Below, one piece after another: positions 50,182 to 58,254 of a stretch of 64,000 nucleotides of DNA (within the stretch, counting starts at the first letter, position 1; each line of letters begins with the position of its first letter). A program made the translations under genes and the position numbers. The notes under the pieces are model-generated. The model did no database searches. It worked only from the letters and a program-made list of their open reading frames with translations, and was not told the DNA's origin. The DNA comes from Cylindrotheca closterium. Its lineage: Eukaryota; Bacillariophyta; Bacillariophyceae; Bacillariales; Bacillariaceae. The DNA lies in NCBI GenBank assembly GCA_933822405.4, contig CAKOGP040002158.1:62001-126000 (forward strand), read 5' to 3'.

Positions 50182-51273
50182 TCATATGAACTTGGCCACA
50201 TATTCAGGTGCTCGTTCTTTCAATAGTTCCCAACAGGCAGGATCATAAACTGTTTCGTTGTAGTTGATTTCCTCTAAAATGGTTTGATTTGGTTTGCACG
50301 CCAATACCATATTCCATTCCGACTTTTTCTTCGCCACATCACCTCTTCCACATCGCTCCTTGAACTCGCCAAAGGAATAGGTATGAATGTGATACAGAGC
50401 CGCCACATCGTTCGGAAGGTCCTCATTGCGTGCCCCCCCGACTATTTTGCCATTGGTGTCCCTGGTTCGCATTGTTTCTGACGCGTTGTACTTGACAAAG
50501 TGTGCGCTTCGAACATTGGGTGTTATTTGGGCTCGTACAATGGTTTTCACCAACGGATTTGTGGCGTTGGCGTCCCGTTTTTGGAACCGCAAGGTAACTG
50601 GTTTTGGTTCGTAGGTAGTTTGTCCATTGAATCCAAACATGACCCAATTCACCGCCAATCCACCATACTCTAATGACAGACTGTCCAGCAAATCCATGAG
50701 CTGAGGATACTTTGTTCGATCCTTAATCACCAAGAACTCATCCAAATCAAAAAAGGCAATCCAGGAATGAGCCTTTCGGTTCCTGATGTCTTCCCAACAA
50801 AGTGTGTAGGCAGGCCGTTGCGCCCGAAAGGAAGGAAAATGTCTGATCACCACCCTCTCTTTCGTAGATTGTGGTAGTTGATCGTGCCACGGCGCGAGCT
50901 CATTGTGCTCGGAATTGTCATAGAGGTATATCGTTTCAAATCCGATGGCCAGATTGTAAATGACCCACTCGTCAATGTACCGGAGGCCGTCCTTTTGAAT
51001 CGCGCAGAGTGCAGCCGAATGGCCATAGGCATTTTCCAAATCCATGTCCGTATTTTGAATGGCGTTGGCATAGGGCAATATCATGCGCTTGTCAAAAATG
51101 CGGAAACTACAAACTAAGACGACCACGGAAAAGAGGCCGAGTGTGGAGGTCAAACTCGGAACTTGGTAATGACTTGCTGATGTTGCTGCTGATGCTGCTG
51201 ATGCTGTCGGAGAGGCCATTTCGTTGGCCCTCGTTTCGTCCTCGTTAGTAGTAGTGCTGCGCTTGGATCGCAT
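50182..51273 (-). CDS. GT92-like (DUF23) glycosyltransferase, type II membrane
   Basis: A 363-residue protein with a short cytosolic tail, a single membrane anchor near residues 41-58 (LTSTLGLFSVVVLVCSF) and a lumenal catalytic domain, the usual Golgi layout. The domain matches the GT92/DUF23 group: AALCAIQKDGLRYIDEWVIYNLAIGFETIYLYDNS at the start, then WIAFFDLDEFLV with the DxD metal/sugar-nucleotide motif, GGLAVNWVMFGFNG, and a late His-containing YHIHTYSF. Members transfer hexoses such as galactose onto glycans; the donor and acceptor here cannot be deduced. The piggyBac element lies upstream, its end 264 bp from this start codon. Confidence 0.85.
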   Translation of the reverse strand: MRSKRSTTTNEDETRANEMASPTASAASAATSASHYQVPSLTSTLGLFSVVVLVCSFRIFDKRMILPYANAIQNTDMDLENAYGHSAALCAIQKDGLRYIDEWVIYNLAIGFETIYLYDNSEHNELAPWHDQLPQSTKERVVIRHFPSFRAQRPAYTLCWEDIRNRKAHSWIAFFDLDEFLVIKDRTKYPQLMDLLDSLSLEYGGLAVNWVMFGFNGQTTYEPKPVTLRFQKRDANATNPLVKTIVRAQITPNVRSAHFVKYNASETMRTRDTNGKIVGGARNEDLPNDVAALYHIHTYSFGEFKERCGRGDVAKKKSEWNMVLACKPNQTILEEINYNETVYDPACWELLKERAPEYVAKFI

Positions 51274-51560
51274 TGCTGCATGGAGGATGATTGCATATAT
51301 ATATATTTATACGGTATGTTGTTTGTAATCCCCTGTGTATCGTCCCGCCTTAACATCAGCATTTTGAAGAATGACGCTGACCTGAAACTCGACAACACCG
51401 ACTAAAACGTGGACTGCTCGATCGAAGATATATATGGTACTGGGAGAGGGGAGAGTTGGAGACAAAAGATGAGAAGCTTCCGATCAAACACTCATATTCA
51501 TTTTGGTGTAACACGTGTTAGTCTTGGTATGATCTTTTTAACCCATCCACGTTTTTGGAC

Positions 51561-51580
51561 TCGGCCCTGATCAGGGCCGA
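51561..51580. repeat. piggyBac left subterminal palindrome
   Basis: TCGGCCCTGATCAGGGCCGA is a perfect 20-bp palindrome starting 20 bp inside the left transposon end. It is a likely transposase-binding site, by analogy with subterminal sites of other piggyBac elements. Confidence 0.8.
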
Positions 51581-51850
51581 CTTCATTTAAAGTTTTTTTC
51601 TCGTACGACAAATTATGTACCGCGCTTGCGTGGAACCACAAAACCAAAATCACAAAGTTTTCTAAAAACATGTATTGATGTAGTTACAAACGTATTCACG
51701 AGACCACGAAGATGTCAATGCGATAAGCTGCTAGTATACGAATCCATCAATTAAACCACTCCAAATCTGATCAAAAACTCAGAATTAGTGTAGCGCCATT
51801 TTTTGTCAAGATTTTTATATGTAAGCCGAGACAGGCATCACTTGAATCAC

Positions 51851-54568
51851 TCATTTTCGCCGCTTTTTTGTGGCAGGAGGCCCTAGTCTGCCCAGAAATG
51901 ATGCTTGGCCCGCTTCATATATCTCTACAACACGTTCCCGCTGGGCCAGTGGCATCTGGTGGAAGAGTCTCCAGCAATTTCTGTCCACTTCCACACAAAA
52001 TGGCAGACAACAGCCGTTACCCAATTCACACCCAGCACATACTGAGCCGGCTTTGCTGTACTTCCCATTAGCCAAACAAAGTGTACACTTTCTTCTACTG
52101 TCGCGTCCTTTCTTCTGTGCATATCTTTTCTCAATGTGATGAGCAGGAAGTATGGAATTCTCATCCGCCGGTGGGAGACCATGTTCAACTGCAAAAATCC
52201 GGCTCCCCATAAAGTGATACACCAGTTGTTTCTTCAGCTCCAAAAGGTTCGGCCACTCCTTCCTCGGTATCTTTTTTGCAGCACAGTATAGGATCCCAGC
52301 ATTCTCAATGCCAACATCCACATAGTAAAAGAAGATTCGGATCCACCAACGACGCAGCCCATGAAGTCGGGTTTCAGCGTGGAGACGTCTCTGGTCAGCA
52401 AAGTCCACGCCACCCATGTACTCATTGTATCTCCGTACTATTTCTGGCCTATTCAGGTCAATGATACCTCTTTCAGCTTTGCTCCGCCTTTTGCAGCTAC
52501 CAGTTGGCCTGCAGTCCCCATCTGAGGTAAGGACAATGACAGGCTTGCGGTCTTTCCAGATCGTGAGACCAATAACAATGGTCTGACCCTTTGAATCCTC
52601 GAAAGTGTACACATGACACTCGTGGTACCCACGCGGCTTGTCTCTGGCATATTTGTTGGTCCATCGAAGATGCTTTGGGATCCGGTTGGCCATCACAGTG
52701 CCGGTGACAAACAAGTCACTTTCGTGAAGTTCCTTGATTACCTCGATTGAAGTATAGAACCGATCCACATAGACAGTTCTGTAGGAGCCATTGTATGGGT
52801 TACAAAGTCGTTTCACAACCTGCGTAGTCTTCTTCAACTCTTCAGATTGAATGTGTCCAGCACCACCAGTATACATTTCCACATTCAAGACATATCCAGA
52901 AGTGGATTCTGTCAAGACATACAACTTGATTCCATATCGCGCCGCCTTGGTGACAACTCGGACCTTAAATCCAATTCGTCCAAAGGCTCGGATTAGTGAC
53001 TCGTCAAGGCTTAGTTGTTGCTCGGGCTCATAGAGATCTCTAAATCTTTCCAACAGTGCCCCAGAGAACTCTTGAAGTTTCTGGTTGGGATCTGCCGGGT
53101 CTGCATCCACGGGAGCAATATGGAGGCCACGCATGATCCTGGCAAATTTTCTTCCCGTCATGATTCTTCTGATTGGAGGACAGTTGATCAGTGGATCCTC
53201 AGAGAACCAAGCAGAAGGTCCATCCCGCCTTCTTTGGCATGAGGCAATCCAAAGAACAGAGAGAGTATCCATGAGATCGTCACGTGTGACGTCCTTCCAA
53301 TCAGCGCCCTTTAATGCGGATCCATATTCGTTTGTTCTCTTCACTACATTAGACATAATTCTCTGTGTGAAAACGGAATTAAAAGCCTTAGGAACACTAT
53401 TGAGGCTTCCAGGTGCATGTTGTATGCCCTTCCTTCCAAAAGGGATTGAAGGTTCGTCCTGATCTTTGGTCCGAGTGGCTGGCGGGCTTTGAATAATAGT
53501 TCGGCGCTTCTCTTCAAACTTTGTTGGAGAATCAACACCCTCAAACGTTGTTGATGTGATCCAGCCTTCTTTTGGTGGAAGAGTCTGTTGAGGAATTCCT
53601 TCTTCATCATCTTTGTCAGTAGGATCCGGCTCCGCAAGTTGGTAGCGCTCGTCAGCTTCCATGAAAGAGCCAGCTGACTCCGCAAGTGCTTCTTCAGGCG
53701 CCCAACAGGTTTCGTCTTCCGCCACAACCGTCAGAGCTTCTTCTTGGGAAACAGGACTCTCTTTGGACCATTCGAGACGAGTCAATAGGGTTTTTCTCTT
53801 TGACCAAATGGGTGGATGCTTAAAAATGTTGACTAATGCTTCAACATCAGCCATTGCTTGATGAGCGCCATCGAGGTCCTTTCCTGTGATATACTTGTAC
53901 ATAGTCGCAAGCTTGAAGTTGTGTGGGCGAATAATTCCATAAGGATAGTCCTGGTGCTTTACCCATAGATATGGATCAATCTGAAATGTAATGTTGGGAC
54001 AGATCTCCACTCTGTGAATTTGGCATTGCTCCAATAGAAATGGATTGTCGAAACTTTTTCCGTTGTATGCGACTAGGCATACCTTTGTGCAGGGATCATT
54101 CCCAATATTCTTCTTGATCCAGGTCATAAATGCATTTCCAACAGTCTTGAAGTCGCTTTCATTCCTCAGCTTGGCATCTGTGATGCCATGGATTGCAACA
54201 GAGTCGCTAACACCCTGTCTTGGTTTGACTAGTGAATAAAATGGTCCAGTCCCGGCAAGTTCATCTCCTTTGTTATCCAATCCAATGGCATACAATTCAA
54301 TGATTTCATTCAATATTTTGGAGAATCCCGTTGTTTCAATATCATAGATGATGTAGATGACCTTGATGATGGTTGCTACGCTTGCTAGTACTTGATTTCC
54401 CCTTGGTGGATTCGGAACATCAGTTGGTGTCAAATTTTGATGTTTGCATGGGCAATCCAATGAATTCTTTCTGTGACCAACCAAGCCACAGGCACTGCAC
54501 TTTGATGGCTTCCTTGGTTTGGTCTTGGCTGCAGCCTCTGCAACTTTGGGGCTTCCAGAGGGTGTCAT
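51851..54568 (-). CDS. piggyBac transposase fused to a DEDDh exonuclease
   Basis: I use the ATG at 54568 (905 residues); an in-frame ATG at 54757 would add 63. Order: a basic start and a zinc-knuckle-like CSACGLVGHRKNSLDC at ~24-39; a DnaQ/TREX-like 3'-5' exonuclease at ~70-250 with all five DEDDh residues (D76 and E78 in YDIETTG, D174 in NGKSFDNPF, H236 and D241 in GAHQAMAD); an acidic linker; a piggyBac transposase at ~390-790 with D522 (LDES), D602 (YVDRFY) and D722/D725 (GGVDFADQ); and a Cys-rich C-terminal domain (CTLC, CAGC, CC, C, C, H) at ~828-870, followed by KKRRK, probably nuclear. PiggyBac excises by hairpins and inserts at TTAA. The exonuclease half is not part of standard piggyBac proteins. 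No frameshift or stop interrupts it. Confidence 0.93.
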   Translation of the reverse strand: MTPSGSPKVAEAAAKTKPRKPSKCSACGLVGHRKNSLDCPCKHQNLTPTDVPNPPRGNQVLASVATIIKVIYIIYDIETTGFSKILNEIIELYAIGLDNKGDELAGTGPFYSLVKPRQGVSDSVAIHGITDAKLRNESDFKTVGNAFMTWIKKNIGNDPCTKVCLVAYNGKSFDNPFLLEQCQIHRVEICPNITFQIDPYLWVKHQDYPYGIIRPHNFKLATMYKYITGKDLDGAHQAMADVEALVNIFKHPPIWSKRKTLLTRLEWSKESPVSQEEALTVVAEDETCWAPEEALAESAGSFMEADERYQLAEPDPTDKDDEEGIPQQTLPPKEGWITSTTFEGVDSPTKFEEKRRTIIQSPPATRTKDQDEPSIPFGRKGIQHAPGSLNSVPKAFNSVFTQRIMSNVVKRTNEYGSALKGADWKDVTRDDLMDTLSVLWIASCQRRRDGPSAWFSEDPLINCPPIRRIMTGRKFARIMRGLHIAPVDADPADPNQKLQEFSGALLERFRDLYEPEQQLSLDESLIRAFGRIGFKVRVVTKAARYGIKLYVLTESTSGYVLNVEMYTGGAGHIQSEELKKTTQVVKRLCNPYNGSYRTVYVDRFYTSIEVIKELHESDLFVTGTVMANRIPKHLRWTNKYARDKPRGYHECHVYTFEDSKGQTIVIGLTIWKDRKPVIVLTSDGDCRPTGSCKRRSKAERGIIDLNRPEIVRRYNEYMGGVDFADQRRLHAETRLHGLRRWWIRIFFYYVDVGIENAGILYCAAKKIPRKEWPNLLELKKQLVYHFMGSRIFAVEHGLPPADENSILPAHHIEKRYAQKKGRDSRRKCTLCLANGKYSKAGSVCAGCELGNGCCLPFCVEVDRNCWRLFHQMPLAQRERVVEIYEAGQASFLGRLGPPATKKRRK

Positions 54569-54800
54569 TGGTGAGGAATGGATGATTGATTGATTTGCAT
54601 TGATTCGACTGAATCCAAGCCAAAAACACAATTTCGGTGAAAAAGAAAATGACCTGTCATTGCTCGAGAACATCACCTTGGAACCTAAGTTTTTGAGGCA
54701 TGCTTCTACTGTATTACAATAATATAGGTGTAAAATCGTATTGTCTAGTTCCATCATTAACCTATTCAACGGATGTGATTTGTGCTGAATTTTAGGGACT

Positions 54801-54818
54801 CGGCCCTGATCAGGGCCG
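54801..54818. repeat. piggyBac right subterminal palindrome
   Basis: CGGCCCTGATCAGGGCCG, 18 bp and perfectly palindromic, ends 16 bp before the right element end. With five flanking bases (GGACT) it is also a direct repeat of the left copy. Confidence 0.8.
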
Positions 54819-54838
54819 TCTGACCCCCGATGGGTTAA

Positions 54839-56712: not shown

Positions 56713-58254
56713 TCAGTTCAAGCTTGTTCTCGAGGAGAGAAGGAAAGGCAACACATTCTCAACGACAATTGAAATACCAGAGTGGACTCGACAGCTCTGT
56801 CGATGGGTGCTGATACATGATTCCTCTTCACCACCATCACGAACATCATTGTCACCCGCATTATTGCCATCATTCGTTGTTGTTTTCAGCAATTTTGTTT
56901 TCCAAAGGACCATTTCCAACAAGGAAAGTATCTCTCGGATTTCGCACTGAATCAATTTGCGCAACACCCTTTCAACTTGTCGACTCGAAGTCTCGGCATC
57001 ATCTGATACTAATAATGTGACTCCTTTTTCCTGTTCTGTCAATACTTCTTGCCTCCATTGTTCCAGTCCAATATATTGGAGTCGCTGTTGGAGAAGAGTT
57101 GGTAGCCAAGTTCGAATGGCTTGCCTCCCAGCAGCATTCTTGCAACGATAATCTAACGGGGTCGATCCAAACGAATCCTTGGCTTGTATCATGGTCTCAA
57201 TAATAGAAGTTGGTAGCTCTTGTACCAATTCCATGACTGGGGTTTCCGCCAGCATTAAAATGTGCATGGGAGTCATTCCAAAAGTGTCCACTTGTTCCGC
57301 GGCTGCGTGAGCACCGATTGGATGTGCCTCGAGAATATCTCGCATCTTGAGAATCGTGTCTTGTGTAGAGTACTGGTAGGTCTGAAAGTAGCATAGTTTA
57401 TGCAACGGTCGATCTACGAATCGGCGCTGTAGTTTGGGGATAAGATCTCTCCAGGCCACTGCGAGTCTTCCCAGTTGAAAGTCAGGGGGAAAGGGCAAGG
57501 AATCCATGCTTCGTACAACCCACTGCTCGGGAGGTGTAAACAAATTTACCAAGGAAGAACAAGATTGTATGCCATCCGAGCCGCCAGTGATATTAGGCAC
57601 CACATCGAGCCTCCACAATCCTTCTGGAACTTCCAAAGATACCAAGGACGAACAGCCTTCCACTGCAGAGGGAGAAATGTCAGTGACACCAGGCGGGAAT
57701 CGGAGATGCGTCAAAGCGGAGCAGTCACAGAATACTTCCATGGGAAACAATCCCTTGATGTTGGGTGGAAGACGGGCCACTGACAATTCAGAACAACCCT
57801 GGAAGGCGCACTTATCAATATTTGTACACCGAGTGTGCTGTGACAAATCCAAATGCTGCAACGAGGAGCAGTTTTCAAAAGCCCCAATTCCAATGATTTC
57901 GATGCTCAATGGCAGCTCAACGGAAGATAGGCTATGACAGTCGTAGAAGGCGTAGTCTAGAATAGTCCGCAGAGTCGATGGAAACCTTACTGTTGTCAGC
58001 ATGGCACAACCCAAGAAGGTACGTCGTCCCAATCCTTCGACGCCCTCCTCCAGCATTACTTCCTCAAGCTCTTGACAGTCCTCGAAAGCGCTCTCAAAAA
58101 GTCTGTCAACGGATCCAGGAACGCGGGTAATCCTGACATTGCGAGGAACCAGCAGCGTTTGATTTTGAAGATAATTGTTGGAAGCAGCAGAGGCGGAATA
58201 GACAAAGACACCGTTCGCGTCAAAACCCAAGCGGGCTTTCTTCCGTGTACGCAT
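56713..58254 (-). CDS. BspA-like LRR (LRR_5) protein with ankyrin-like C-terminus
   Basis: A 513-residue intron-free protein. Residues ~45-230 are BspA/LRR_5 repeats of ~23 residues with the FxxCxxLxxVxxP pattern: AFEDCQELEEVMLEEGV, TFLGCAMLTTVRFP, AFYDCHSLSSVELP, AFENCSSLQHLDLS, AFQGCSELSVARLP and VEGCSSLVSLEVP. These form a solenoid surface for binding proteins. At ~325-400 come two ankyrin-like helical hairpins (FGMTPMHILML, FGSTPLDYRCKNAAG). The combination recurs in diatom protein sets, usually without known function. No signal peptide or membrane segment, so cytosolic or nuclear. The basic start (RTRKKARLGF) might act as a nuclear signal. Confidence 0.8.
   Translation of the reverse strand: MRTRKKARLGFDANGVFVYSASAASNNYLQNQTLLVPRNVRITRVPGSVDRLFESAFEDCQELEEVMLEEGVEGLGRRTFLGCAMLTTVRFPSTLRTILDYAFYDCHSLSSVELPLSIEIIGIGAFENCSSLQHLDLSQHTRCTNIDKCAFQGCSELSVARLPPNIKGLFPMEVFCDCSALTHLRFPPGVTDISPSAVEGCSSLVSLEVPEGLWRLDVVPNITGGSDGIQSCSSLVNLFTPPEQWVVRSMDSLPFPPDFQLGRLAVAWRDLIPKLQRRFVDRPLHKLCYFQTYQYSTQDTILKMRDILEAHPIGAHAAAEQVDTFGMTPMHILMLAETPVMELVQELPTSIIETMIQAKDSFGSTPLDYRCKNAAGRQAIRTWLPTLLQQRLQYIGLEQWRQEVLTEQEKGVTLLVSDDAETSSRQVERVLRKLIQCEIREILSLLEMVLWKTKLLKTTTNDGNNAGDNDVRDGGEEESCISTHRQSCRVHSGISIVVENVLPFLLSSRTSLN

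Follow-up and report, generated by a model that had tools for sequence, protein, structure and literature searches.

A predicted DEDDh exonuclease fused to a piggyBac transposase in an autonomous-looking transposon of Cylindrotheca closterium

Introduction

The best-studied piggyBac transposon leaves its cut site undamaged and is valued for scarless excision, which relies on intact donor ends of 4 nucleotides (nt). In the scheme outlined in PMC7351741, a 3'-OH attacks flanking DNA at a distance of 4 nt, hairpins arise and are then opened, and the donor keeps complementary 4-nt overhangs that permit seamless repair; the catalytic triad is D268/D346/D447. KolobokD, a TTAA-specific transposon, encodes a DEDDh exonuclease likened by its authors to TREX, ERI1 and exuperantia; it is reported from mollusks, arthropods and cnidarians and, according to the same authors, has not been widely surveyed (PMC9587614). 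Dada carries a DnaQ-like DEDDy exonuclease inside its transposase core and targets small RNA genes (PMC3706591). Here we describe a piggyBac-type transposon in a 64 000-nt stretch of the Cylindrotheca closterium genome (GCA_933822405.4, contig CAKOGP040002158.1, positions 62 001–126 000 of the forward strand; 'the window', numbered from its first letter), in which one open reading frame (ORF) appears to join a DEDDh exonuclease to the transposase.

With members of the piggyBac superfamily (piggyBac 6x67 and piggyBat 9c0f) the element shares a TTAA duplication, CC...GG ends formed by terminal inverted repeats that start with CC beside the TTAA, a DDE_Tnp_1_7 domain with the D268/D346/D447 set, and the predicted fold. 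It differs from both in the zinc knuckle and DEDDh exonuclease added at the N-terminus of its protein (905 amino acids, against 594 and 578 for the 6x67 and 9c0f chains) and in an 18-bp subterminal palindrome at both ends. The exonuclease, with its five residues in order and a predicted RNase-H-like exonuclease fold, has the fold and all the catalytic residues of TREX1/TREX2 and of bacterial PolC/DnaQ-type enzymes, and is 17–22% identical to the TREX chains listed. Assignment to KolobokD was considered and rejected: that group has a Kolobok transposase and 5'-RR...YY-3' termini (PMC9587614), whereas the window element has a piggyBac transposase and ends in 5'-CC...GG-3'. Assignment to Dada fails as well, the exonuclease here being N-terminal to the DDE region and of DEDDh type (His at 236), and the target TTAA.

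Results

On sequence and predicted structure, the protein is very probably a single-frame fusion of a TREX/DnaQ-type DEDDh 3'–5' exonuclease, placed N-terminally, to a piggyBac transposase through an acidic flexible linker, carried by an autonomous-looking and recently mobile cut-and-paste transposon. The ORF (51851..54568, minus strand) starts with an ATG at 54568, and its stop codon ends at 51851; it codes for 905 amino acids, has no internal stop and contains Pfam domains of both kinds. An earlier interpretation made from the letters alone (the sequence-only reading) had described this uninterrupted frame, without naming its strand, with D76, E78, D174, H236 and D241 as exonuclease residues and D522, D602, D722 and D725 as the transposase set; every one of them was found at exactly that position. 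In the alignment with piggyBac chain 6x67_C, the correspondence being counted by hand in the printed alignment, D522, D602 and D722/D725 stand opposite the catalytic D268, D346 and D447/D450.

All the domains named below lie on the minus strand. The exonuclease domain (about residues 66–256; 53801..54373) is matched by RNase_T (PF00929) over residues 73–249 (E = 8.1e-19), and its predicted fold is RNase-H-like and TREX-like, the outcome that the sequence-only reading had set as a check on itself. The piggyBac DDE transposase region (about residues 390–780; 52229..53401) is matched by DDE_Tnp_1_7 (PF13843) over residues 395–757 (E = 7.4e-63). Between the two lies the acidic linker (about residues 257–389; 53402..53800), where Asp and Glu make up 21% of residues versus 11–12% in the flanking domains and where model confidence is low in part (pLDDT, the predicted local distance difference test score, about 30 at residues 269–332). 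The proposed zinc knuckle (residues 23–48; 54425..54502) was recovered as zf-CCHC_6 barely above the Pfam cut-off (22.1 bits against 22); the expression CxxCxxxGHx4-5C is matched by 9 of 25 homologs and not by the window protein, whose last gap is longer. The proposed C-terminal Cys-rich domain (about residues 805–880; 51929..52156) fared less evenly: the region is visible, its Cys columns are conserved and its profile aligns with the C-termini of piggyBac and piggyBat, but the Pfam match to zf-Tnp_2 falls below the cut-off (E = 0.88). NCBIfam matches are all confined to the N-terminal part, with PolC and DnaQ-type exonucleases on top and all below curated cut-offs.

Homologs were sought with the full protein by scoring the 7995 candidates that shared most words with it, and at least 26 were found. 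Both PF00929 and PF13843 are present in 20 of 26 among the matches listed (identity to the window protein 33–39%), which rules out a chance ORF fusion or an annotation artefact and bears out the sequence-only reading in its claim of two enzymes in one frame. In an alignment of 26 rows (the window protein and 25 homologs, P0026 being left out), the exonuclease residues are invariant wherever a row covers them (D76 and E78 19/19, D174 22/22, H236 and D241 24/24), as are the transposase residues (D522 and D602 26/26, D722 and D725 24/24), so that the catalytic residues earlier seen to be intact are also kept across distant relatives. In the 20 two-domain rows of sufficient length, the exonuclease has 180 well-filled columns, of which 17 are invariant, all five catalytic columns among them (chance about 4e-6). 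Exonuclease and transposase distances are correlated (r = 0.84; 0 of 5000 permutations).

Two of the homologs, labelled by their sources as transcriptome proteins, have both domains in one ORF: P0011 (from EukProt, under a name that suggests MMETSP0417, 'Mayorel...') and P0012 (from MMETSP, marked 'type:complete'); the names are as written by the sources, and contamination of such libraries is possible. No transcript separating the two halves, which would have refuted the sequence-only reading, was seen among the sequences covered, none of which was a transcript of this host. Pfam reports zf-CCHC_6 in P0011, and in P0012 the match is under the cut-off. P0013 is filed under a cyanobacterial metagenome-assembled genome, and we take it to be a mis-binned eukaryote contig. 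PF00929 is absent from 6 of the 26 homologs. Four look truncated: P0019, P0022 and P0024 begin within the exonuclease region, P0023 within that of the transposase. P0021, starting in the linker, could be a true exonuclease loss, and P0026 is an ordinary piggyBac. With a threshold of E = 1e-8, a profile search gave at least 37 proteins, among which the only new transposon members are two C. closterium halves (P0029 and P0030); the remaining 35 have the exonuclease without a transposase domain in precomputed Pfam lists and are mostly PolC. With two short peptide patterns, 37 matches in viral contigs and 82 in prokaryotic genome contigs yielded no confirmed relative.

The ORF had been taken to belong to an intact element, and comparison of copies extends that element to 51538..54838 (3301 bp including a TTAA at each end, 51538..51541 and 54835..54838; coding strand minus). 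Its terminal inverted repeats, CCCATC at 51542..51547 (plus) and 54829..54834 (minus), form with the TTAA a perfect 10-bp terminal inverted match, TTAACCCATC. The subterminal palindrome CGGCCCTGATCAGGGCCG lies at 51562..51579, 24 bp from the left outer end, and at 54801..54818, 20 bp from the right one. Transposition appears to have been recent, because contig C114 has a copy that is 100% identical over the 3301 bp, bordered by TTAA at either end and set in unrelated flanking sequence, and because a 250-bp piece of the left flank in the window is unique in the assembly. Since that flank matches nowhere else in the assembly, no allelic empty site for this insertion was seen.

A pattern built on the ends occurs 13 times in the genome, versus 0 for its reversed control. 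By this pattern both ends are present in C536 (the window), C114, C57 and C235, and a single end in C41, C60, C246, C355 and C556. The C41 element (628 bp) does have two ends, of which one differs by a base. Six complete elements have an intact TTAA at either end; these were located via their ends, so eroded ones would escape. The elements in C57 and C235, of 1827 bp each and with TTAA at both ends, share 99.9% identity. Their resemblance to the full element is mainly at the termini (about 215 and 370 bp, 85% and 73% identity); neither contains a stop-free frame of more than 119 codons, and the exonuclease and transposase profiles found no match in the C57 element. For these reasons they are relatives of the window copy rather than fresh deletions of it. 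Partial copies were found in C51, C20, C503 and C9.

The public C. closterium proteins P0030 and P0029 are two separate entries, each on a 6906-base contig. P0029 corresponds to residues 470–905 of the window protein with 2 substitutions, and P0030 to residues 1–162 and 197–450 with 7 substitutions, its out-of-frame tail excepted. P0030 departs from the window frame after about residue 451, whereas the window and C114 copies are open throughout; the two entries seem to be gene models of a near-identical copy whose frame is broken. The public annotation splits that copy into two genes and hides the fusion. Missing from P0030 is an in-frame GT...AG stretch of 102 nt (residues 163–196, D174 included; 53981..54082, minus), presumably taken as an intron in the model. 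This stretch is most likely coding, because it holds the ExoII motif and the D174 column is D in all 22 covering rows. An isoform without it is possible; splicing would yield an exonuclease-dead form.

The closest affinity of the exonuclease was approached in three ways: structure ranks TREX first (TREX1/TREX2 being the top exonuclease matches), the sequence profile ranks PolC first (PolC 1e-16, DinG 2e-13, TREX2 7e-12, ERI1 chains about 1e-7), and the tree does not settle the matter. The only stand-alone relatives found were P0027 and P0028 (30% and 28% identical). In the exonuclease tree (37 rows), 9l8a and the group of P0027, P0028 and P0064 fall among the transposon rows, which need 3 changes even by the starred branches; a single clade of transposon rows was nevertheless not rejected (approximately unbiased test, p-AU = 0.192). 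The DDE tree has 29 rows, P0024 and P0025 having been dropped as too short, and its 'exo' label includes P0019 and P0021–P0023, whose exonuclease is partial or missing. Long branches lead to C318, C80, piggyBat, piggyBac and P0026, and C318 is placed among exonuclease-free rows with weak support (86/49).

C318 (212–3559) is a very distant piggyBac of the same genome, 28% identical over residues 420–760, with perfect 19-bp ends (TTAACCGTTTCCTGATCAG), a DDE domain and one in-frame stop. Its exonuclease region matches the profile from position 23 on (E = 1e-15; nothing under 0.1 in the reversed control); the first D and E precede the matched part and were read by eye in the translation, and Pfam gave no RNase_T match past the stop. 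In C78, C38, C570, C87 and C109 the exonuclease matches are weaker; alongside, remnants matching the transposase profile score up to 7e-5 in C109 and only 0.03–0.07 in C38. No exonuclease match was obtained from the fetched stretches of C80 and C524, which are of piggyBac type. The C318 end sequence also recurs in inverted pairs spanning about 530–540 bp (C223, C4, C43), which look like small non-autonomous elements. Near the ends of both families (C318 212–230; window 51562–51579) stands CCTGATCAG, possibly a common transposase-binding core. C30, C295, C532 and C146 have weak DDE_Tnp_1_7 matches (profile positions 29–137 only) within open frames of 508 or 368 amino acids, and may represent another repeat family. 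Near the element in the window, an ORF at 50182–51273 (minus) resembles glycosyltransferase families 2_4 and 92, and 56713–58254 (minus) encodes a BspA-type leucine-rich repeat protein.

Discussion

The sequence-only reading suggested that the exonuclease may process donor ends, degrade competing DNA or counter host defence, and made no mention of the DnaQ-type exonucleases in Dada and KolobokD. What the exonuclease does can be approached by analogy with canonical piggyBac. The transposase part would bind the ends, cut, and integrate at TTAA in the piggyBac manner, with the element's 3' ends shielded by the transpososome. Being tethered at the break, the exonuclease would then digest unprotected 3' ends, chiefly the recessed ones of the donor site. 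Direct TTAA-to-TTAA rejoining without a scar would become harder, and gaps would more often be filled by copying the sister or homologue; this would restore the element at the donor site and let copy number grow. That the exonuclease acts on donor-site 3' ends, shifting repair from rejoining to templated repair, is the account towards which we tentatively lean. Several points weigh against it. On its own, a 3'–5' exonuclease yields 5' tails, whereas recombination starts from 3' tails; the argument for a donor-site role is drawn from canonical piggyBac; and the substrate may be RNA. Four contigs (C60, C246, C355 and C556, with C355 at a contig edge) have one end only, and a set of elements found through their ends, such as the six clean ones, would miss those with eroded ends. 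Shorter elements are common in ordinary cut-and-paste transposons too. In a bolder form, which we consider unlikely, this piggyBac lineage would have abandoned seamless cut-and-paste altogether: the exonuclease would spoil the donor TTAA ends and force templated repair, making transposition effectively replicative, in convergence with the exonucleases of KolobokD and Dada.

A doubtful, though possible, alternative is that the exonuclease clears transposition intermediates or competing extrachromosomal DNA, as TREX does, averting a DNA-damage or DNA-sensing response and leaving donor repair unaffected. TREX1/TREX2 being the best structural matches accords with such scavenging, and a similar proposal is made in the KolobokD report (PMC9587614); fusion to the transposase, however, would place the nuclease at the transpososome, where it is not free to scavenge. 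We think it quite unlikely that the exonuclease serves the transposition chemistry itself, by trimming mis-cut or damaged transposon 3' ends or correcting ends before strand transfer. A general proposal of this kind exists for the Dada exonuclease (PMC3706591), and the intact TTAA of the six complete elements fits it, but the piggyBac scheme as given in PMC7351741 lacks such a step, and no exonuclease match turned up in the portions of C80 and C524 that were retrieved. Counter-defence by degradation of RNA, for example of small RNAs that silence the element, seems improbable: DEDDh folds do include exoribonucleases, and ERI1 chains match the profile, but chains labelled DNA exonucleases (PolC, DinG and TREX2) score better. 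If the halves were neighbouring genes, or if an isoform lacked a functional exonuclease, the separation of P0030 and P0029 and the absence of the GT...AG-bounded residues 163–196 from P0030 would be explained, yet the off-frame tail of P0030, the fully open window and C114 copies, the conserved ExoII motif in the missing stretch and the two-domain proteins P0011 and P0012, labelled as transcriptome-derived, make this very improbable.

In the literature searched, which lay outside Repbase, no paper describing an exonuclease–piggyBac fusion was recognised among the matches listed. To our knowledge, DnaQ-type exonucleases have been described in two other transposon superfamilies, those of Dada and KolobokD; piggyBac would bring the number to three, a hint that the need recurs. 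As regards the donor-site role that we tentatively favour, a natural piggyBac lineage with a conserved tethered exonuclease offers a direct way to test, with one inactivating mutation, how end protection, donor repair and copy gain are connected.
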